Shown one piece after another: positions 19,787 through 31,604 of a stretch of DNA of 64,000 bases. A model generated the notes under the pieces. That model was not told where the DNA came from. It searched no databases and saw nothing but the letters and a program-made list of their open reading frames with translations. This DNA comes from Planctomycetota bacterium (lineage in GTDB: Bacteria; Planctomycetota; Phycisphaerae; Phycisphaerales; Phycisphaeraceae). The stretch's first letter is position 1. Each line of letters begins with the position of its first letter. Location: the NCBI GenBank assembly GCA_026386955.1, contig JAPLMQ010000312.1, positions 1 to 64,000 on the forward strand, given 5' to 3'. The translations under genes and the position numbers were made by a program.

Positions 19787-20824
19787 TCAGCGGCGGCGAC
19801 GCAGGAGCACGGCCATGGCGCCAAGGCCCAGGAGCGTCGCCGAAGCGGGCTCCGGGACGTTGTTGGGCAGCGGCGCCAAGTTCAGGGCGATGTTCTGCCC
19901 GCCGATGAACCCGCCCACCGTGGCCGAGAGGTTGTTGGGGTCGGGGGTGTCCAGGAGGGCCTCGCCTTCGGCGCTGTAGGAGCCGACGTATTTGTAGAAC
20001 TCATAGCGGCAGGTGGCGGCCTTGGAGTCTGGGAGCAGGTCGTTCTGGCCGCTGTCGAGCTTGTCGGCGAGGTTCTTCTGGAGCAGCACCCATTCGGTCT
20101 CGACCGTGTTCGACAGGTCGGGATTGCCGACCAGCAGGTCATTCAACGCCACGGCGTGGTCGCGGCTTTCCGTCGTGAAGACCTTGGCCCAGATGGCCGG
20201 GCCGAACTGCGCGCCGGCGAACTCGGGGTCCGGAGCCGGCACGACGATCTGGACCGCGGCCGGTGCGGCGGGGTTGCCCACGGGGGGCGCGGCGGTGAAG
20301 ACCGGGGTCGGAATGGAGACGTTGCTCCCCGCCACGGTCAGATGGCCCGCGTTGTCGCCCGTGAGCCAGCGGTAAATGGTGTTGGTTGGCGTGCCGGTGA
20401 GTCCAAGGCCGAAGTGGTCGCCAGGCACGCCGGCGCCTTTGAGCGGATAGTTCGGGTCGCCGCCGGTCCAGAACTGGTGGCCGCCGGTGGTGATCGGGGT
20501 GGTGGCGAAGGGGGTGTAGGTCGACCAACCGCCGCCCGAAAACGTGGCGGCGTAGTCAAGCACCACGCCGCCGGTGATGGAACGCTTCACGGGATCGCCG
20601 TAGCGGTTGTAGGGGCTGCCGAAGGTGTAGTTGATGTCGCTGGTGGTGATCCCGTCGAGTTCGATCTCAAAGCCGTTGCAGACCTGCCCAGTGTCGTTGA
20701 CGGCGTCGAAGTTGCTCAGCGTGCCGTAGATCACCGGCCCGGCGAACGCCTGCGCGCCGCCGGCCAACAGGGCCACCGCAGGGATCAACGCCTTCCAGAA
20801 CCTTCTCTTCGTGAATCGTTCCAT
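19787..20824 (-). CDS. PEP-CTERM sorting-domain exported protein
   Basis: The protein has 345 residues. It begins with a signal peptide (basic start MERFTKRRF, hydrophobic core to about 27, AFA before GPVIYG) and ends with a PEP-CTERM tripartite signal: VPEPAS, a hydrophobic segment, then RRRR. Such proteins are exported and then processed at the tail by an exosortase, usually for surface or extracellular matrix placement. The body is Gly/Thr/Pro-rich with no catalytic motif that I recognise; a signature is NGFEIELDGI. A strong GGAGG lies 7 bp before the ATG at 20822-20824 and settles the start. No exosortase is in the window. Confidence 0.88.
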   Translation of the reverse strand: MERFTKRRFWKALIPAVALLAGGAQAFAGPVIYGTLSNFDAVNDTGQVCNGFEIELDGITTSDINYTFGSPYNRYGDPVKRSITGGVVLDYAATFSGGGWSTYTPFATTPITTGGHQFWTGGDPNYPLKGAGVPGDHFGLGLTGTPTNTIYRWLTGDNAGHLTVAGSNVSIPTPVFTAAPPVGNPAAPAAVQIVVPAPDPEFAGAQFGPAIWAKVFTTESRDHAVALNDLLVGNPDLSNTVETEWVLLQKNLADKLDSGQNDLLPDSKAATCRYEFYKYVGSYSAEGEALLDTPDPNNLSATVGGFIGGQNIALNLAPLPNNVPEPASATLLGLGAMAVLLRRRR

Positions 20825-21055
20825 GCCGCATCCTCCGTGTTGAGTGATCGGACCAACCTGCCCCGGCCGAAACGGGGCGCGCGGACGCCGCGAGCCTGTC
20901 CCGATTATAAAGGACAATTTTGTCTTTTTCAATGGCTTGTGGTTAATCCCCCGCGCGGGGACGACCATTTCATTCCCCGTCCACCGACCTTGGGGGTTTG
21001 GGGAATCCCGCGCGGCATCGAGTCCGGCCCCGGACCCCGCTCCGCCCCTCCGCGC

Positions 21056-21874
21056 TCACCGGCTCAGCAACGTGCGGAACGCACCCGGCTCGATCTTCTC
21101 CTGGCTGCCCAAGTACCACTCCCACATCTCCCGCCTCAGCTCCCACTCCTTGTAGTAGTCCGAGCAGTAGTGCTGGATCGGGCCGACCATCGACGCGGTC
21201 TTGTTGATGATGATCTGGTCGGCCGCCTTCGCGTCGTGCCGCCAGCTCGGCCGGCCCACCAGCGGGGCGCTCTTGCGGTTGAAGAGGAACTTGAGCATGT
21301 ACCGCGGCCGGTCCGACCTGCTCAGCGTCGCGGCGTGCCAGAGGTCGTAGTGCGTGATCGCCACCGTCCCGGCCCTCACGGTCAGGAACTCCGTGCCCTT
21401 GATGTTCCCGTAGTTCGACATCGTGTCGGTCGGGGCGTTGCGCAGGTGCGTGCCGGGGAGGACCGCCGTCGGGCCCATCTCGGGCGTGACGTCCTGCGGG
21501 TAATACATCGCCAGGCAGCACCACGTCTGGTGGTGGCGGACGTTCGTGCCGTCCTGGTGCCAGGTCTGGCTGCGGGGCGTGTGGGGCTTGACGGTGTGCA
21601 GGTGGCGGTGGCCGTCCATCTCCACGTCCTTGCCCAGCACGCTCATCAGCGGGCCCAGCACGCGCGGGTTGTCGTAGATCTGCTTCAGCTCGGGCACGGC
21701 GTCGAGGATCCCGTTCCCGGGGTTCGACTTGATCTGGTCGAGCTTCGCGACGATCGAGGCGTGGAAGCCCTCGGGGAAGTCGCCCGCCTGCGGCTCGACG
21801 AGGTGGTAGCCGCGGGCGATGAAGTCGAGCAACTGGGCGTCGTCGAGCAGATACTTCGGGGCGATGGCTGGCAT
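21056..21874 (-). CDS. Phytanoyl-CoA dioxygenase (PhyH) family protein
   Basis: The 272-residue protein has the Fe(II)/2-oxoglutarate dioxygenase facial triad: His106 and Asp108 in QTWHQDGTNV, and a distal histidine in ITHYDLWHAA (His175 or His180). MYYPQDVTPEMGPTAVLPGT is the family's conserved strand after the first pair. It should be a soluble oxidase of an unknown small substrate. GGAGAAG precedes the ATG at 21872-21874 with suitable spacing; the frame upstream of it is low-complexity. It follows the unknown gene 21981-22370 on the same strand by about 100 bp. Two further PhyH genes lie at 27058 and 30774, but they are clearly not recent copies. Confidence 0.87.
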   Translation of the reverse strand: MPAIAPKYLLDDAQLLDFIARGYHLVEPQAGDFPEGFHASIVAKLDQIKSNPGNGILDAVPELKQIYDNPRVLGPLMSVLGKDVEMDGHRHLHTVKPHTPRSQTWHQDGTNVRHHQTWCCLAMYYPQDVTPEMGPTAVLPGTHLRNAPTDTMSNYGNIKGTEFLTVRAGTVAITHYDLWHAATLSRSDRPRYMLKFLFNRKSAPLVGRPSWRHDAKAADQIIINKTASMVGPIQHYCSDYYKEWELRREMWEWYLGSQEKIEPGAFRTLLSR

Positions 21875-21980
21875 GGGCTTCTCCAATTCCGGGGGCAATT
21901 CCGGGGGCCGGGACGAGGACAGGAATTCCGTGTGGTGGACGTGGACCAACGCTCCGTCGGCCGGCGCTCCGTCGGCCGAC

Positions 21981-22370
21981 TCAGGCCGGGGGCTGCAGCT
22001 TCTCGAGGATGAACTCGTACCCGACGACGTCGATCTCGCGGTCGTCGAAGGCGTCGCGCTGGTTGGGGAAGTGGATGACCCGCCACCCGTCGCGGATCGC
22101 CTCGTGGACGCTCTTGTAGGGGATCGGCTTGGCGAGCGGGTCCAACTGCGGGACCTTGTCCGGCGCCGGCTCGTGCAGCGTGGCGCTGAGCGTCTCGGCG
22201 TGGATGCTCGGGTGGGCGGCGTGGATGTAGAGGATCCACTGCTTGCCCGACCCGCACGAGGCCGAGGCGGCTGACGCGACTGACGCGACCAAAGCGTCGA
22301 GGTCGGCCGGGGTGAGCTTGCCTTGGGCGAGCTTGGTCTTGGCGAGCGTGAGCGTTTCGGCGCAGGACAT
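21981..22370 (-). CDS. Conserved-looking hypothetical protein
   Basis: This is a 129-residue cytoplasmic protein of no family known to me. An alanine-rich helical first third (TLAKTKLAQGKLTPADLDAL) is followed by a compact beta-type region (QWILYIHAAHPSIHAETLSA, WRVIHFPNQRDAF) and a C-terminal strand VVGYEFILEKL. Its base composition and wobble-position use match neighbouring genes, which supports coding. It lies upstream of the PhyH gene on the same strand and divergently from the UDP-galactopyranose mutase. The interval between it and PhyH contains short GC-rich direct repeats (CCGGCCGACTCAGGCCGG region). Confidence 0.65.
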   Translation of the reverse strand: MSCAETLTLAKTKLAQGKLTPADLDALVASVASAASASCGSGKQWILYIHAAHPSIHAETLSATLHEPAPDKVPQLDPLAKPIPYKSVHEAIRDGWRVIHFPNQRDAFDDREIDVVGYEFILEKLQPPA

Positions 22371-22494
22371 CGTTTGGGTTTCCGTGGTTTGGCTGCGGGC
22401 TTTCCGGGGGCCTTCCGGAGTTTCCGGCCCCGCATTCGGCCCATCAGTGTACCCCGTCGATCCCGGCGGGTGAATCTGCTATAAACCCCCGACC

Positions 22495-23931
22495 ATGGCC
22501 GAATCACCCCGCGTCCTGATCCTCGGCGCAGGCCCCACCGGGCTCGGCGCCGCGTGGCGTCTCCACGAGCTGGGCCACACCAACTGGCGCCTCCTCGAAG
22601 CCTCCGAGCAGGCGGGCGGATTGGCGATGTCCGTCGTCGACCCCGCCGGCTTCACCTGGGACTTGGGCGGCCACGTCGTCTTCTCCCACTACCAATACTT
22701 CGACGACCTGCTCGACTCCCTCCTGGCCGAGTGGGTCGAGCACGTCCGCGAGTCGTGGGTCTGGATGCGCGACCGCTTCATCCCCTACCCGCTCCAGCAC
22801 AACATCTGGCGGCTGCCGCCCGAGGACCTCTGCAAGTGCTTCGACGGGTTCCTTGAGGTCCACAAGGCCCTCGCCGCCGCCGGGCCCGCGGGCGTCCCCA
22901 AGCCCATCCACTTCCGCGACTGGATCCTCAAGTCCTTCGGCCAAGGCCTCGGCGAGGTCTTCCTCTACCCGTACAACTTCAAGGTCTGGGCCTACGACCC
23001 CGCTCGCCTCGCGGTGAACTGGATGGGCGAGCGCGTCCCCACCGCCGACCTCCGCCGCAGCCTCCACAACCTCATCCACCAGCGCGACGACGTCTCCTGG
23101 GGCCCCAACGCCCGCTTCCGCTTCCCGCTCCACGGCGGGACCGGCGCGATCTGGCGCGCCCTCGCGAACCGCCTGCCGAAGCAGAACGTCCATCTCAACG
23201 CCCGCGTGACCCGCATCGACTCCGCCGCGAAGCGCATCCACCTCGCCGACGGGACGACGCACGAGTACGACTGGCTCATCACCACCATGCCGCTCGACGA
23301 CACGCTCCGCGCCCTCTCCGACCGCCCGGACCTGAAGGCCCAGGCCGGCAAGCTCGTCTACAGCAGCACGCACGTGGTGGGCATCGGCATCGACGCCCCG
23401 GCCGTGCCCTCGCTCAAGACCAAGTGCTGGATGTATTTCCCCGAGCCCGAGCTGCCGTTCTACCGCGTGACGGCCTTCTCGAACTACTCGCCCAACAACG
23501 TCCCCGTCCCGGGCAAGCAGTCGTCGCTCATGGCCGAGATCGCCGAGTCGCCCGACAAGCCGGTCGACCAGAAGACCGTCGTCGAGGAGACGCTGCGCGG
23601 CCTGCGCGCCGCGGGCCTCATCGCCCCCGACGCCCCGATCATCAGCAAGTGGCACCGCCGGCTCGAGCACGGCTACCCCACGCCGTTCCTCGAGCGCGAC
23701 TCGATCATCAACCCCGTCGACCGCGAGCTCAAGGCCCTGGGCATCCTCAGCCGAGGCCGCTTCGGCGCGTGGAAGTACGAGGTCTCGAACCAGGACCACT
23801 CGACGATGCAGGGCGTCGAGGCGGCCGACTTCATCCTCTCCGGCTCGCTGGAGACGACCTACTACGAGCCCGAGACGGTGAACCAGAAGGACAAGCGCCC
23901 GCTGCCGGCGAGGCCGAAGGTCAAGGGTTGA
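22495..23931 (+). CDS. glf: UDP-galactopyranose mutase of the eukaryotic sequence type
   Basis: The protein has 478 residues; typical bacterial Glf has about 370-390. It begins with the FAD-binding Rossmann motif LILGAGPTGLGAAWRL (GAGPTG at 11-16) and continues with GGHVVFSHYQYFDDLLD, PYNFKVWA, WMGERVPTADL, FRFPLHGGTGAIW, SSTHVVGIG, KCWMYFPE, FYRVTAFSNYSPNN, HRRLEHGYPTPFLERD and SRGRFGAWKYEV. From memory these blocks match fungal and protozoan UDP-galactopyranose mutases closely and the bacterial enzyme poorly. The reaction converts UDP-galactopyranose to UDP-galactofuranose with reduced FAD. The product would feed a surface glycan. The ATG at 22495 overlaps no other gene, and the gene converges with the DUF2314 gene with 8 bp between. 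Confidence 0.85.
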   Translation: MAESPRVLILGAGPTGLGAAWRLHELGHTNWRLLEASEQAGGLAMSVVDPAGFTWDLGGHVVFSHYQYFDDLLDSLLAEWVEHVRESWVWMRDRFIPYPLQHNIWRLPPEDLCKCFDGFLEVHKALAAAGPAGVPKPIHFRDWILKSFGQGLGEVFLYPYNFKVWAYDPARLAVNWMGERVPTADLRRSLHNLIHQRDDVSWGPNARFRFPLHGGTGAIWRALANRLPKQNVHLNARVTRIDSAAKRIHLADGTTHEYDWLITTMPLDDTLRALSDRPDLKAQAGKLVYSSTHVVGIGIDAPAVPSLKTKCWMYFPEPELPFYRVTAFSNYSPNNVPVPGKQSSLMAEIAESPDKPVDQKTVVEETLRGLRAAGLIAPDAPIISKWHRRLEHGYPTPFLERDSIINPVDRELKALGILSRGRFGAWKYEVSNQDHSTMQGVEAADFILSGSLETTYYEPETVNQKDKRPLPARPKVKG

Positions 23932-27057: not shown

Positions 27058-27843
27058 ATGCCCGCCGAAAATCTCCCCGCCGACTTCCAGAAGAACCTCG
27101 ACGCCCTCGTCTCCGACGGCTTCCTCCTCCTCCGCGGCGCCCTCGACCCCGCGGCCATCCAAGCCTGGCGCGACGCCTTGCAGAGGCAGTACGACGCCAA
27201 GGCCTGGGACATCCGCAACAACGTCGGCAACGTCGCCTTCGACCGCCTGCTTGAGCGCGAGCCCGCCCTCGCCCGCCCGCTCGTCGGCCACGCCAGCGTC
27301 GCCCCTTACTTGAAGGCCCTCCTCGGCAGGCAATGCCAGCTCCGCAGCCTCCGCGCCCACGTCAATCCCGCGGCCTACACGCAGGAGTGGCACATGGATT
27401 TCTACAGCTATTGGAACCAGGAGAACGAGGGCAAGTTCGCCGTCCGCGGCCTCTGCGTGAACACCACCTTCTACCTCACCGACAACACGCCCGAGACCGG
27501 CCGGCTGACTTTCCTCAAGGAATACCGCAACCGCCCCGTCCCCGCGGAGTTCAAGGACAACCAGTACTACACCGAGGACCGCAACAACCCGTTCCAGAAA
27601 TGGTGCGACGCCCAGCCGCAAACCCACCTGCACCCGCTGGCCGGCGACGTGGTGGTCTTCCTCAGCCACGTCCCGCACCAGGGCGCGAAGCTGCGCGACG
27701 ACGCCCCGGGCACGATGCGCTCCAACGTCGTGCTCCACTACCAGACCAACCCGATGTACCCCGGCGCGGCCTTCGTCAGCTCGCCCCACGCAGCCGTGGC
27801 GGCGCTGGGCTTCGAGGGCACGTTCCCGTTCGCGGGGAGGTGA
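27058..27843 (+). CDS. Phytanoyl-CoA dioxygenase (PhyH) family protein
   Basis: The 261-residue protein has the Fe(II)/2-oxoglutarate dioxygenase motif His112-x-Asp114 in EWHMDFYSYW, and a distal histidine in FLSHVPHQGAK (His204 or His207). LCVNTTFYLTDNTPETGRLT is the conserved strand that follows the first pair. It differs strongly from the PhyH proteins at 21056 and 30774. The substrate is unknown. The ATG at 27058 follows an untranslated stretch rich in repeats. The next gene starts about 50 bp after its stop. Confidence 0.85.
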   Translation: MPAENLPADFQKNLDALVSDGFLLLRGALDPAAIQAWRDALQRQYDAKAWDIRNNVGNVAFDRLLEREPALARPLVGHASVAPYLKALLGRQCQLRSLRAHVNPAAYTQEWHMDFYSYWNQENEGKFAVRGLCVNTTFYLTDNTPETGRLTFLKEYRNRPVPAEFKDNQYYTEDRNNPFQKWCDAQPQTHLHPLAGDVVVFLSHVPHQGAKLRDDAPGTMRSNVVLHYQTNPMYPGAAFVSSPHAAVAALGFEGTFPFAGR

Positions 27844-29761: not shown

Positions 29762-30661
29762 TCACCGCGCCCCCGCCCACGGCTGGGCCTGTTCGCGGTA
29801 CTGCAGCGGCGAGAGACCCGTGCAGCGGCGGAACGTGCGGCTGAAGGTGAACGGGTCGGCGACGCCCACGCTCGAGGCGACCTGCTTCACCGGCAAATCC
29901 GTCTCGCCCAGCAGCCGCCGGGCGGCGTCGCAGCGCAGGTGGGCGATGTAGCGGGCGGGCGGCAGGCCGGTGATCTGCCGCACGCGCTGGCGCAGGAGCG
30001 AATAGCTCATCGCGTGCCGCCTCGCGAGCGCGGGCAGGTCGATCGGCTGGGCGAAGTGCAGCCTGCAATGGTCGAGCACGGCCTCGATCGCGGGGTTCCC
30101 CGCGCGGGCTTGGGCGACGTCGGCCCGGGCGTGGTGCAGCTCCAGCAGCAACGATTGCGTGGCCAGTCCCGCGCGGTCGAGGTCGCCGGGCTGGCCGCGC
30201 TTGAGCACCGCGATCAGGCCGCGCCACGCCTCGACCAGTTCGCCGATCTTCGAGACCGGGCGGACCGAGCCGTCGTCGAAGAGCCAGCCCGCCTTGAGCA
30301 GCCGGCGGGTGCCGGGCCCGGTGAGGCAGACGAAGTATTCCTCCCAGGTCGTGCCCGGGTCGGGCCCGTAATGGAAGCGCGGGCCGGGGAAGACGGCGAA
30401 GGCGCAGCCGGGCTCGATGCGCCGAACCACGTCAGCCCCCGAGCCATCCTCCACGCGGTAGGAGCCGCGCCCGGAGACGACCAGCCCGATCGCCCAGATG
30501 GTGAAGCAGTGGTGGATCCAGTCGCGCTTGGCGGGGATGTGGCCCGCCCCGGCCGACTGGATGTCGCCGCCCGCGGAGGGCTGCAACAGCGGGACGGAGC
30601 CGCGGATCGGTTGCTCGGGGACCTTTGTCATTTTGGCCATGGGACCTGTCACGTTGGCCAT
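29762..30661 (-). CDS. AraC-family transcriptional regulator
   Basis: The 299-residue protein has an N-terminal cupin-like sensor region (GLVVSGRGSYRV, FAVFPGPRFHYGP) and a C-terminal double helix-turn-helix (IDLPALARRHAMSYSLLRQR, then VKQVASSVGVADPFTFSRTF) ending in the family motif FRRCTGLSPLQYR. It is divergent from the PhyH gene at 30774 with about 110 bp between, the usual arrangement of an AraC regulator and its target. The ligand is probably a sugar or a related small molecule. The first ATG gives MANVTGPMAK; a second in-frame ATG 7 codons later lies in a very similar sequence context (a repeated TTGGCCATGG). Confidence 0.87.
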   Translation of the reverse strand: MANVTGPMAKMTKVPEQPIRGSVPLLQPSAGGDIQSAGAGHIPAKRDWIHHCFTIWAIGLVVSGRGSYRVEDGSGADVVRRIEPGCAFAVFPGPRFHYGPDPGTTWEEYFVCLTGPGTRRLLKAGWLFDDGSVRPVSKIGELVEAWRGLIAVLKRGQPGDLDRAGLATQSLLLELHHARADVAQARAGNPAIEAVLDHCRLHFAQPIDLPALARRHAMSYSLLRQRVRQITGLPPARYIAHLRCDAARRLLGETDLPVKQVASSVGVADPFTFSRTFRRCTGLSPLQYREQAQPWAGAR

Positions 30662-30773
30662 GGTTCGCCTTGATTCATCGGATATTCTATGTTGGTTCCG
30701 TCTCCGGGCGCGTTGTCAATCGAGTGCGATCGCCCCGGCCGCCTGCCCACCGCAAACCCAAGGGAAATCGTCC

Positions 30774-31604
30774 ATGCCGCTCACGCAAGCCCAGGTCGAC
30801 CAGTTCAAGACGAACGGCTTCGTCGCCGTGCCCAACTTCTTCGGGCCCAGCGAGGTCCGGGCGATGCAGCTCGAGACCGAGCGCTTCAAGCGCGACGGGC
30901 TCCTGCGCAACGTGCGCACCGAGGGCGACGGGAAGACGGCCTCCACGGCCGCCCGCAACCTGCAGATCTGCCCGATGTTCCACCGCAGCTCGCTCTTCCG
31001 CGCGCTGCCCTTCGAGCCCAAGGTCGTCGAGGCCGTCACGCAGCTCATCGGCGGGCCGATGATCCTCCACCTCGACCAGATGTTCCTCAAGCCCGCCGGC
31101 GACGGCGACGGGACCAACTGGCACCAGGACAACGCCTACTTCCGCATCGCCGACCCGCTCAAGGGGACCGCGATGTGGATCGCCGTGCATGACGCGACGA
31201 TCGCCAACGGGACGATGAACCTCATCCCCAACAGCTTCAAGGAGACGCTCCCGCACGAGCGCGACCCGATGAGCGACCACCACATCCGCTGCTGGCCCGA
31301 CGAGAACAAGCAGGTTCCCGTCGAGCTCGCGGCGGGGGGCGTGATCTTCTTCTGCTACGGCACGCCGCACTGCACCCGCGCGAACCGCACCGAGCGCGAC
31401 CGCGCCGGCGCGGCCTTCCACTTCCTTCATGCCGAGTACGCCCAGCTAGAGTTGATCAACGACGCGCGGCAGGACCGCCCCTACCTCACGGGCCCCAAGG
31501 CCACGGGCGGGATGCGCGAGTACGGGCAGACGATCGCGGGGACGTGGCCGATCGAGCTGTCGAAGGCGCTCTCGCTGGAGGCGGAGTTGGCGCTGGCGCG
31601 GTGA
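30774..31604 (+). CDS. Phytanoyl-CoA dioxygenase (PhyH) family protein
   Basis: The 276-residue protein has the Fe(II)/2-oxoglutarate dioxygenase site His117-x-Asp119 in NWHQDNAYF, with the distal His199 in CYGTPHCTRAN and a probable 2-oxoglutarate-binding arginine close after it. It is of the larger PhyH group that includes ectoine-hydroxylase-like and sugar-modifying enzymes. AAGGGAAA precedes the ATG at 30774; the longer frame from 30498 covers the AraC gene and was rejected. The divergent AraC regulator at 29762 probably controls it. Two CCCAGGCAC hairpins follow it. Confidence 0.87.
   Translation: MPLTQAQVDQFKTNGFVAVPNFFGPSEVRAMQLETERFKRDGLLRNVRTEGDGKTASTAARNLQICPMFHRSSLFRALPFEPKVVEAVTQLIGGPMILHLDQMFLKPAGDGDGTNWHQDNAYFRIADPLKGTAMWIAVHDATIANGTMNLIPNSFKETLPHERDPMSDHHIRCWPDENKQVPVELAAGGVIFFCYGTPHCTRANRTERDRAGAAFHFLHAEYAQLELINDARQDRPYLTGPKATGGMREYGQTIAGTWPIELSKALSLEAELALAR

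Follow-up and report, generated by a model that had tools for sequence, protein, structure and literature searches.

UDP-galactopyranose mutases (UGMs) are divided into a 'prokaryotic' and a 'eukaryotic' class (PMC3624792). How, then, can a planctomycete bacterium carry a UGM gene of the eukaryotic type? The gene lies in a stretch of 64,000 nucleotides of contig JAPLMQ010000312.1, from a Planctomycetota bacterium of the family Phycisphaeraceae, and this whole stretch is called the window here. A sequence-only reading of the window had proposed two ways of explaining the gene: either planctomycete-type bacteria hold the ancestral form of the eukaryotic enzyme, or the gene crossed between domains. 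As described below, the window gene belongs to an enzyme class that is already known, and for which the name 'eukaryotic' is misleading.

Assignment to the eukaryotic class of UGM

The gene is an open reading frame of 478 codons on the forward strand, stop-free in its translation of 478 residues, in which the four motif blocks quoted in the sequence-only reading are all found letter for letter. The features on which the assignment draws are as follows.

22495..23931, + strand: UGM gene of eukaryotic type, 478 aa (open frame, PDB matches, predicted model)
22525..22542, + strand: FAD-binding GxGxxG motif, residues G11-G16, GAGPTG (from translation)
22666..22674, + strand: histidine loop G58-G59-H60 (aligned to G60-G61-H62 of the Trypanosoma cruzi enzyme, TcUGM)
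23032..23034, + strand: Arg180, equivalent of TcUGM Arg176, diphosphate/substrate (alignment, the same residue in each of the 92 UGM-type rows)
23464..23466, + strand: Arg324, equivalent of TcUGM Arg327, a residue kept throughout the UGMs (alignment, likewise the same in each of the 92 rows)

The GxGxxG motif is common to all UGMs, and the double glycine in the histidine loop has been described as unique to the eukaryotic ones (PMC3624792); the role of TcUGM Arg176 at the substrate and diphosphate and the conservation of Arg327 in all UGMs are likewise described (PMC4192007). With 478 residues against 484 and 509 in eukaryotic PDB chains, the window protein is within the range of about 480-510. 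A search of PDB sequences gave as its best matches the UGMs of T. cruzi (4dsg, E = 2e-146) and Aspergillus fumigatus (3uka, E = 3e-131), and the next, unrelated flavoproteins appeared only at E = 1e-5. Aligned identity is 49.4% over 451 columns to the former enzyme and 45.6% over 454 columns to the latter, while eukaryotic UGMs share 47-60% identity among themselves (PMC3624792).

Which residues, then, are kept at the active site? Nine residues of TcUGM have a described role, namely His62, Arg176, Asn201, Tyr317, Arg327, Tyr395, Arg423, Tyr429 and Asn433 (PMC4192007), and a further one, the glutamine that binds uracil, is missing from the classical bacterial enzyme, Glf (PMC3624792). In the alignment all ten are identical in the window protein (H60, R180, N205, Y314, R324, Y394, R422, Y428, N432 and Q101) and invariant over the 92 UGM-type rows, each of which also keeps the double-glycine loop. 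An AlphaFold model, for which 44 bacterial sequences served as input, reached a pLDDT of 92.3 and a pTM of 0.91. When this model was searched with Foldseek, ranks 1-34 were exclusively eukaryotic UGM structures, with TM up to 0.93 (4dsg); protoporphyrinogen oxidases followed after them, and classical Glf (Deinococcus radiodurans 3hdq) came 49th. The classical Glf domain PF03275 was found neither in the window protein by Pfam nor in its own genome, in searches whose positive controls worked.

Thus, from the active-site residues, the predicted fold and the absence of PF03275, the window protein belongs by sequence and model to the eukaryotic UGM class, as far as family and active site are concerned, just as the sequence-only reading had proposed. 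Grouping with classical Glf or with another FAD oxidase family, named there as the outcome that would speak against the proposal, did not occur. Its statement that classical bacterial Glf proteins are shorter and strongly diverged also agrees with the literature, in which the two classes share 14-18% identity and the classical enzymes are about 100 residues shorter (PMC3624792).

The window protein might still, with this fold, be a pyranose mutase for a different nucleotide sugar, such as UDP-GalNAc, UDP-arabinopyranose or a deoxy-sugar, and its product would then not be galactofuranose (Galf). Proteins of the fold family that are about 30% identical to it, for which no function has been assigned, retain most of the active-site residues, so that other substrates may exist among them. 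However, the substrate contacts checked here are identical to those of the galactose enzymes of T. cruzi and A. fumigatus and invariant over the 92 rows, and identity to these enzymes is close to 50%, which makes another substrate improbable for the window protein.

Spread among bacteria and the GT2 partner gene

How far does this type of UGM extend among bacteria? When GTDB contigs were scanned, 262 relatives of the window protein emerged, and the best 80 of the 262 (48-59% identity) represent at least 17 named bacterial phyla, among them Bacteroidota, Sumerlaeota, Actinomycetota (Acidimicrobiia), Pseudomonadota, Verrucomicrobiota, Gemmatimonadota, Acidobacteriota, Myxococcota, Planctomycetota and Cyanobacteriota. 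This list of phyla comes from a query-centred search, and unbiased prevalence is given by the class and phylum samples, in which a eukaryotic-type UGM occurs in 21 of 298 genomes of the organism's own class and in 18 of 392 genomes of the phylum sample. Such a patchy spread suggests horizontal movement of the gene among bacteria. In the UGM trees (see below), the clade of the window protein consists of Gemmatimonadota, Acidimicrobiia, Cyanobacteriota/Melainabacteria and one Schlesneria, not of relatives from its own class. Planctomycete-type bacteria as holders of the ancestral form are thus not supported, either by the distribution over at least 17 phyla and a small part of their own class or by the neighbours in the trees. 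Bacterial members of the eukaryotic UGM class were not found described in the literature searched, an earlier notice being possible. As a separate observation, two IMG/VR contigs catalogued as viral (L093 and L094) each contain a full-length UGM of eukaryotic type, and these UGM-bearing contigs may be host DNA or may carry the mutase as an auxiliary gene.

When the flanking genes of 93 UGM loci were compared all against all, one recurrent neighbour emerged: a same-strand gene for a GT2 glycosyltransferase, which touches the UGM gene in 46 of the 93 loci, directly upstream in 45 (often with a 4-bp overlap) and directly downstream in 1. Within the clade of the window protein it touches UGM in each of the 15 other bacteria, and it is also present in Myxococcota, Bdellovibrionota and the majority of Bacteroidota. 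Cultured carriers such as Spirosoma, Siphonobacter and Fibrisoma have the two genes adjacent. Beside the window UGM itself the GT2 is absent, the upstream gene being divergent. A profile search of the window genome detected a homologue on another contig, C68 (12155-12910), with E = 5.5e-90, the next best GT2 being at 1.5e-32. This C68 GT2 is 60-61% identical to a Gemmatimonadota partner GT2, no GT2 of its type scored above 114 bits among 296 genomes of class relatives, and in a GT2 tree it falls with the same species set as in the UGM tree, minus Acidimicrobiia (100/98). From this match, its absence in the class and the concordance of the two trees, UGM and GT2 were probably acquired jointly from another bacterial lineage and separated later.

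The partnership is specific to part of the UGM family: the GT2 was present in none of 9 genomes with UGM outside this set (including Sumerlaeota, Chromatiaceae, Verrucomicrobiota and Omnitrophota), as against 2 of 3 Bacteroidota tested, with a non-adjacent GT2 in L058. Since UGM of this type also occurs in many genomes that lack the GT2, as in Sumerlaeota, Chromatiaceae and Verrucomicrobiota, UDP-Galf must have other uses as well.

Could the window gene be a contaminant from metagenome binning or assembly? The assembly is in 316 contigs, and among the family members searched a eukaryotic-type UGM is found only in the window genome, where it is a single copy. However, the gene lies inside a 64-kb contig stretch with native composition on either side (its GC3 of 0.97 and the local G+C of 0.68-0.69 are both as in the neighbouring genes), contamination is estimated at 1.7%, and the GT2 that goes with it lies in this bin on another contig, so two independent contaminations would be needed. 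Contamination is, therefore, very unlikely.

No glycan or Galf genes were recognised beside the window UGM, whose neighbours are PhyH, DUF2314, SDR and PEP-CTERM genes, nor were recognisable glycan genes seen beside the C68 GT2. Three of the neighbours, within 11 kb, encode PhyH (phytanoyl-CoA dioxygenase) proteins (21056-22507 on the reverse strand, 27058-27843 and 30498-31604 on the forward strand), a PhyH-like open frame also lies near the GT2 gene on C68, and the product of the gene at 19787-20968 on the reverse strand is a secreted protein that bears a PEP-CTERM sorting signal at its C terminus.

What kind of transferase is the partner? In the search with the model of the C68 GT2, fold ranks 1-24 are ArnC, GtrB and dolichyl-phosphate mannose synthase, which its sequence profile likewise matches; each of these makes a sugar-loaded polyprenyl phosphate. 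It shares with them the DxDxQ motif and, downstream, the Arg/Gly/Ser motifs (a conserved Arg...Gly-x-x-Ser on the acceptor side), and its invariant columns are D97, D99, R124, R127, R133, R206, G209 and S212. In contrast, identity to these synthases is 24%, and the C-terminal extension of ArnC and GtrB (about 310 residues in all) with its membrane region is not present in the C68 GT2, which has 251 residues and whose model ends soon after a helix at 215-241, while the target chains in the fold search have about 290-320 residues. Since this extension is missing, a lipid acceptor for the C68 GT2 is a guess by analogy. The C-terminal membrane region is missing in some single-domain relatives of dolichyl-phosphate synthase, too.

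The following course is proposed, with the catalytic mechanism taken from the homologous enzymes of T. cruzi and A. fumigatus. GalE, which the window genome encodes (431 bits against a cut-off of 262), would supply the substrate UDP-Gal. After reduction of the UGM flavin by NAD(P)H, flavin N5 would attack C1 of UDP-galactopyranose and displace UDP; the sugar would open as a flavin iminium and reclose as galactofuranose, and the returning UDP would give UDP-Galf. The main consumer of UDP-Galf is probably the small GT2, adjacent to UGM in the relatives and encoded on C68 here, which would transfer Galf to undecaprenyl phosphate, a similar carrier or another envelope acceptor. Galf bound to a carrier might then be used outside the cytoplasm by a membrane GT-C enzyme. 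Large membrane proteins are encoded near the GT2-UGM pair at several loci (L004 2753-4525, L006 771-2426, L022 7296-9101, L028 7402-9387 and L043 2338-3993), some of them with weak similarity to PMT_2 or Agl23, and they are candidates for such Galf-using transferases. The membrane GT-C that adjoins the pair at one Gemmatimonadota locus gave no match in the window genome, in a search run without a positive control.

Taken jointly, the window protein is very probably a working FAD-dependent UGM of the eukaryotic class, which belongs to a broad, patchily distributed bacterial group, probably delivers its product to a GT2 consumer and was probably acquired together with that GT2. In this account the family, residues, fold, GT2 linkage and co-occurrence come from computation; catalysis, the acceptor of the GT2 and the final glycan are what we infer.

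Relation to the eukaryotic enzymes

How are the bacterial members related to the enzymes of eukaryotes? Two mixture-model trees were made, in which T. cruzi and A. fumigatus are the only eukaryotes and the outgroups are extremely distant. In these trees the two eukaryotes pair together (support 94/88 and 99/89), and the pair is sister to the window protein's bacterial clade (96/91 and 98/93). The T. cruzi UGM is 54% identical to some bacterial members as against 49% to that of A. fumigatus. As both eukaryotic sequences join the tree next to or inside a bacterial subgroup, a UGM gene of eukaryotic type is likely, as far as these sequences tell, to have crossed between domains. The transfer may have run in either direction, the trees having just two sequences from eukaryotes and a root that lies very far away. 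When the root was forced between eukaryotes and bacteria, the tree became only 3.8 log units worse and this rooting was not rejected (AU p = 0.358); when either eukaryote was used singly, its attachment differed from that in the two-eukaryote tree, and A. fumigatus as the sole eukaryote attached elsewhere, without support. A firm nesting of the eukaryotes within the bacteria was considered as well and set aside as too strong a statement, given the long outgroup branches, this AU value and the shift of A. fumigatus alone. Thus, of the two ways proposed at the outset, domain crossing stands as likely, and planctomycete-type ancestry does not.

Did the window gene then come directly from a eukaryote, by a recent crossing into bacteria? 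The enzyme type was described from eukaryotes, the two eukaryotic sequences adjoin the clade to which the window protein belongs, and a forced grouping of this protein with the eukaryotes is 12.7 log units worse and not formally rejected (AU p = 0.118). However, the nearest sequences are bacterial (59% against 49% identity), bacteria stand between the window protein and the eukaryotes in the best tree, the codon pattern is native, and the GT2 partner, common to the 15 bacterial clade members, is a feature of a bacterial operon. Such a direct origin is, therefore, most unlikely.

A more far-reaching proposal starts from the bacterial gene pair. Eukaryotic-type UGM and the ArnC/DPMS-like GT2, in hosts from Gemmatimonadota, Acidimicrobiia, Cyanobacteriota, Planctomycetota, Bacteroidota, Myxococcota and Bdellovibrionota, might form a two-gene module which makes polyprenyl-phosphate-galactofuranose for surface glycans, and the eukaryotic UGM of fungi and trypanosomatids might descend from that bacterial branch. 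We put this forward only tentatively and think it rather doubtful in its entirety.

Annotation and comparison with known systems

What is of most interest here is the breadth of the enzyme in bacteria, its conserved GT2 partner and a link, open to test, with the question of where eukaryotic UGM came from. Annotation follows the prokaryotic/eukaryotic split, by which the window protein is labelled 'Amino_oxidase' or 'hypothetical protein': its best curated domain is Pfam PF01593 (Amino_oxidase), and the best NCBIfam models, PRK07208 'hypothetical protein', reach 179 bits against a cut-off of 380, so that no model fits. That the protein is in fact a redox enzyme of the amine oxidase, protoporphyrinogen oxidase or desaturase type, as PF01593 and these models far under cut-off might imply, is hardly credible, with eukaryotic UGM first in both PDB sequence and fold searches, an E-value gap of about 30 orders of magnitude to the first oxidase and a complete set of UGM substrate residues. 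As the 'eukaryotic' class is widespread in bacteria, galactofuranose synthesis is probably under-called in many of the carrier phyla. The conserved GT2 neighbour offers a handle on a possibly undescribed route of UDP-Galf use, and the bacterial relatives are a well-populated comparison set for the origin of fungal and trypanosomatid UGM, which is a drug target.

Among known systems, the NCBIfam PRK07208 group (NF005545-NF005549) is of the same fold family as the window protein. Class relatives about 30% identical to the window protein, from genomes of the same order (L089-L092) and placed in PRK07208 by similarity, keep 14 of 16 active-site residues of eukaryotic UGM; their only differences there are the two histidine-loop glycines, in place of which they have Ser-Ile. 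Judged by sequence, they may be unrecognised nucleotide-sugar pyranose mutases.

Classical Glf (PF03275) of Klebsiella pneumoniae, E. coli, Mycobacterium tuberculosis and D. radiodurans has the same three-domain FAD fold and presumably catalyses the same reaction as the window protein, whereas it is about 100 residues shorter with another uracil pocket (PMC3624792), and D. radiodurans Glf (3hdq, fold rank as given above) is only 19% identical. UgmA of A. fumigatus (PDB 3uka and the 3ute series), which forms tetramers (PMC3308961), has the same residues and fold at 46% identity, although it exceeds the window protein by about 30 residues. T. cruzi UGM (PDB 4dsg/4dsh) has 49% identity, the same length, identical active-site residues including the GGH loop and a model TM of 0.93; it differs in working with eukaryotic Golgi-type Galf transferases, whereas the window protein, with its predicted activity, has a bacterial host and a GT2 partner gene.
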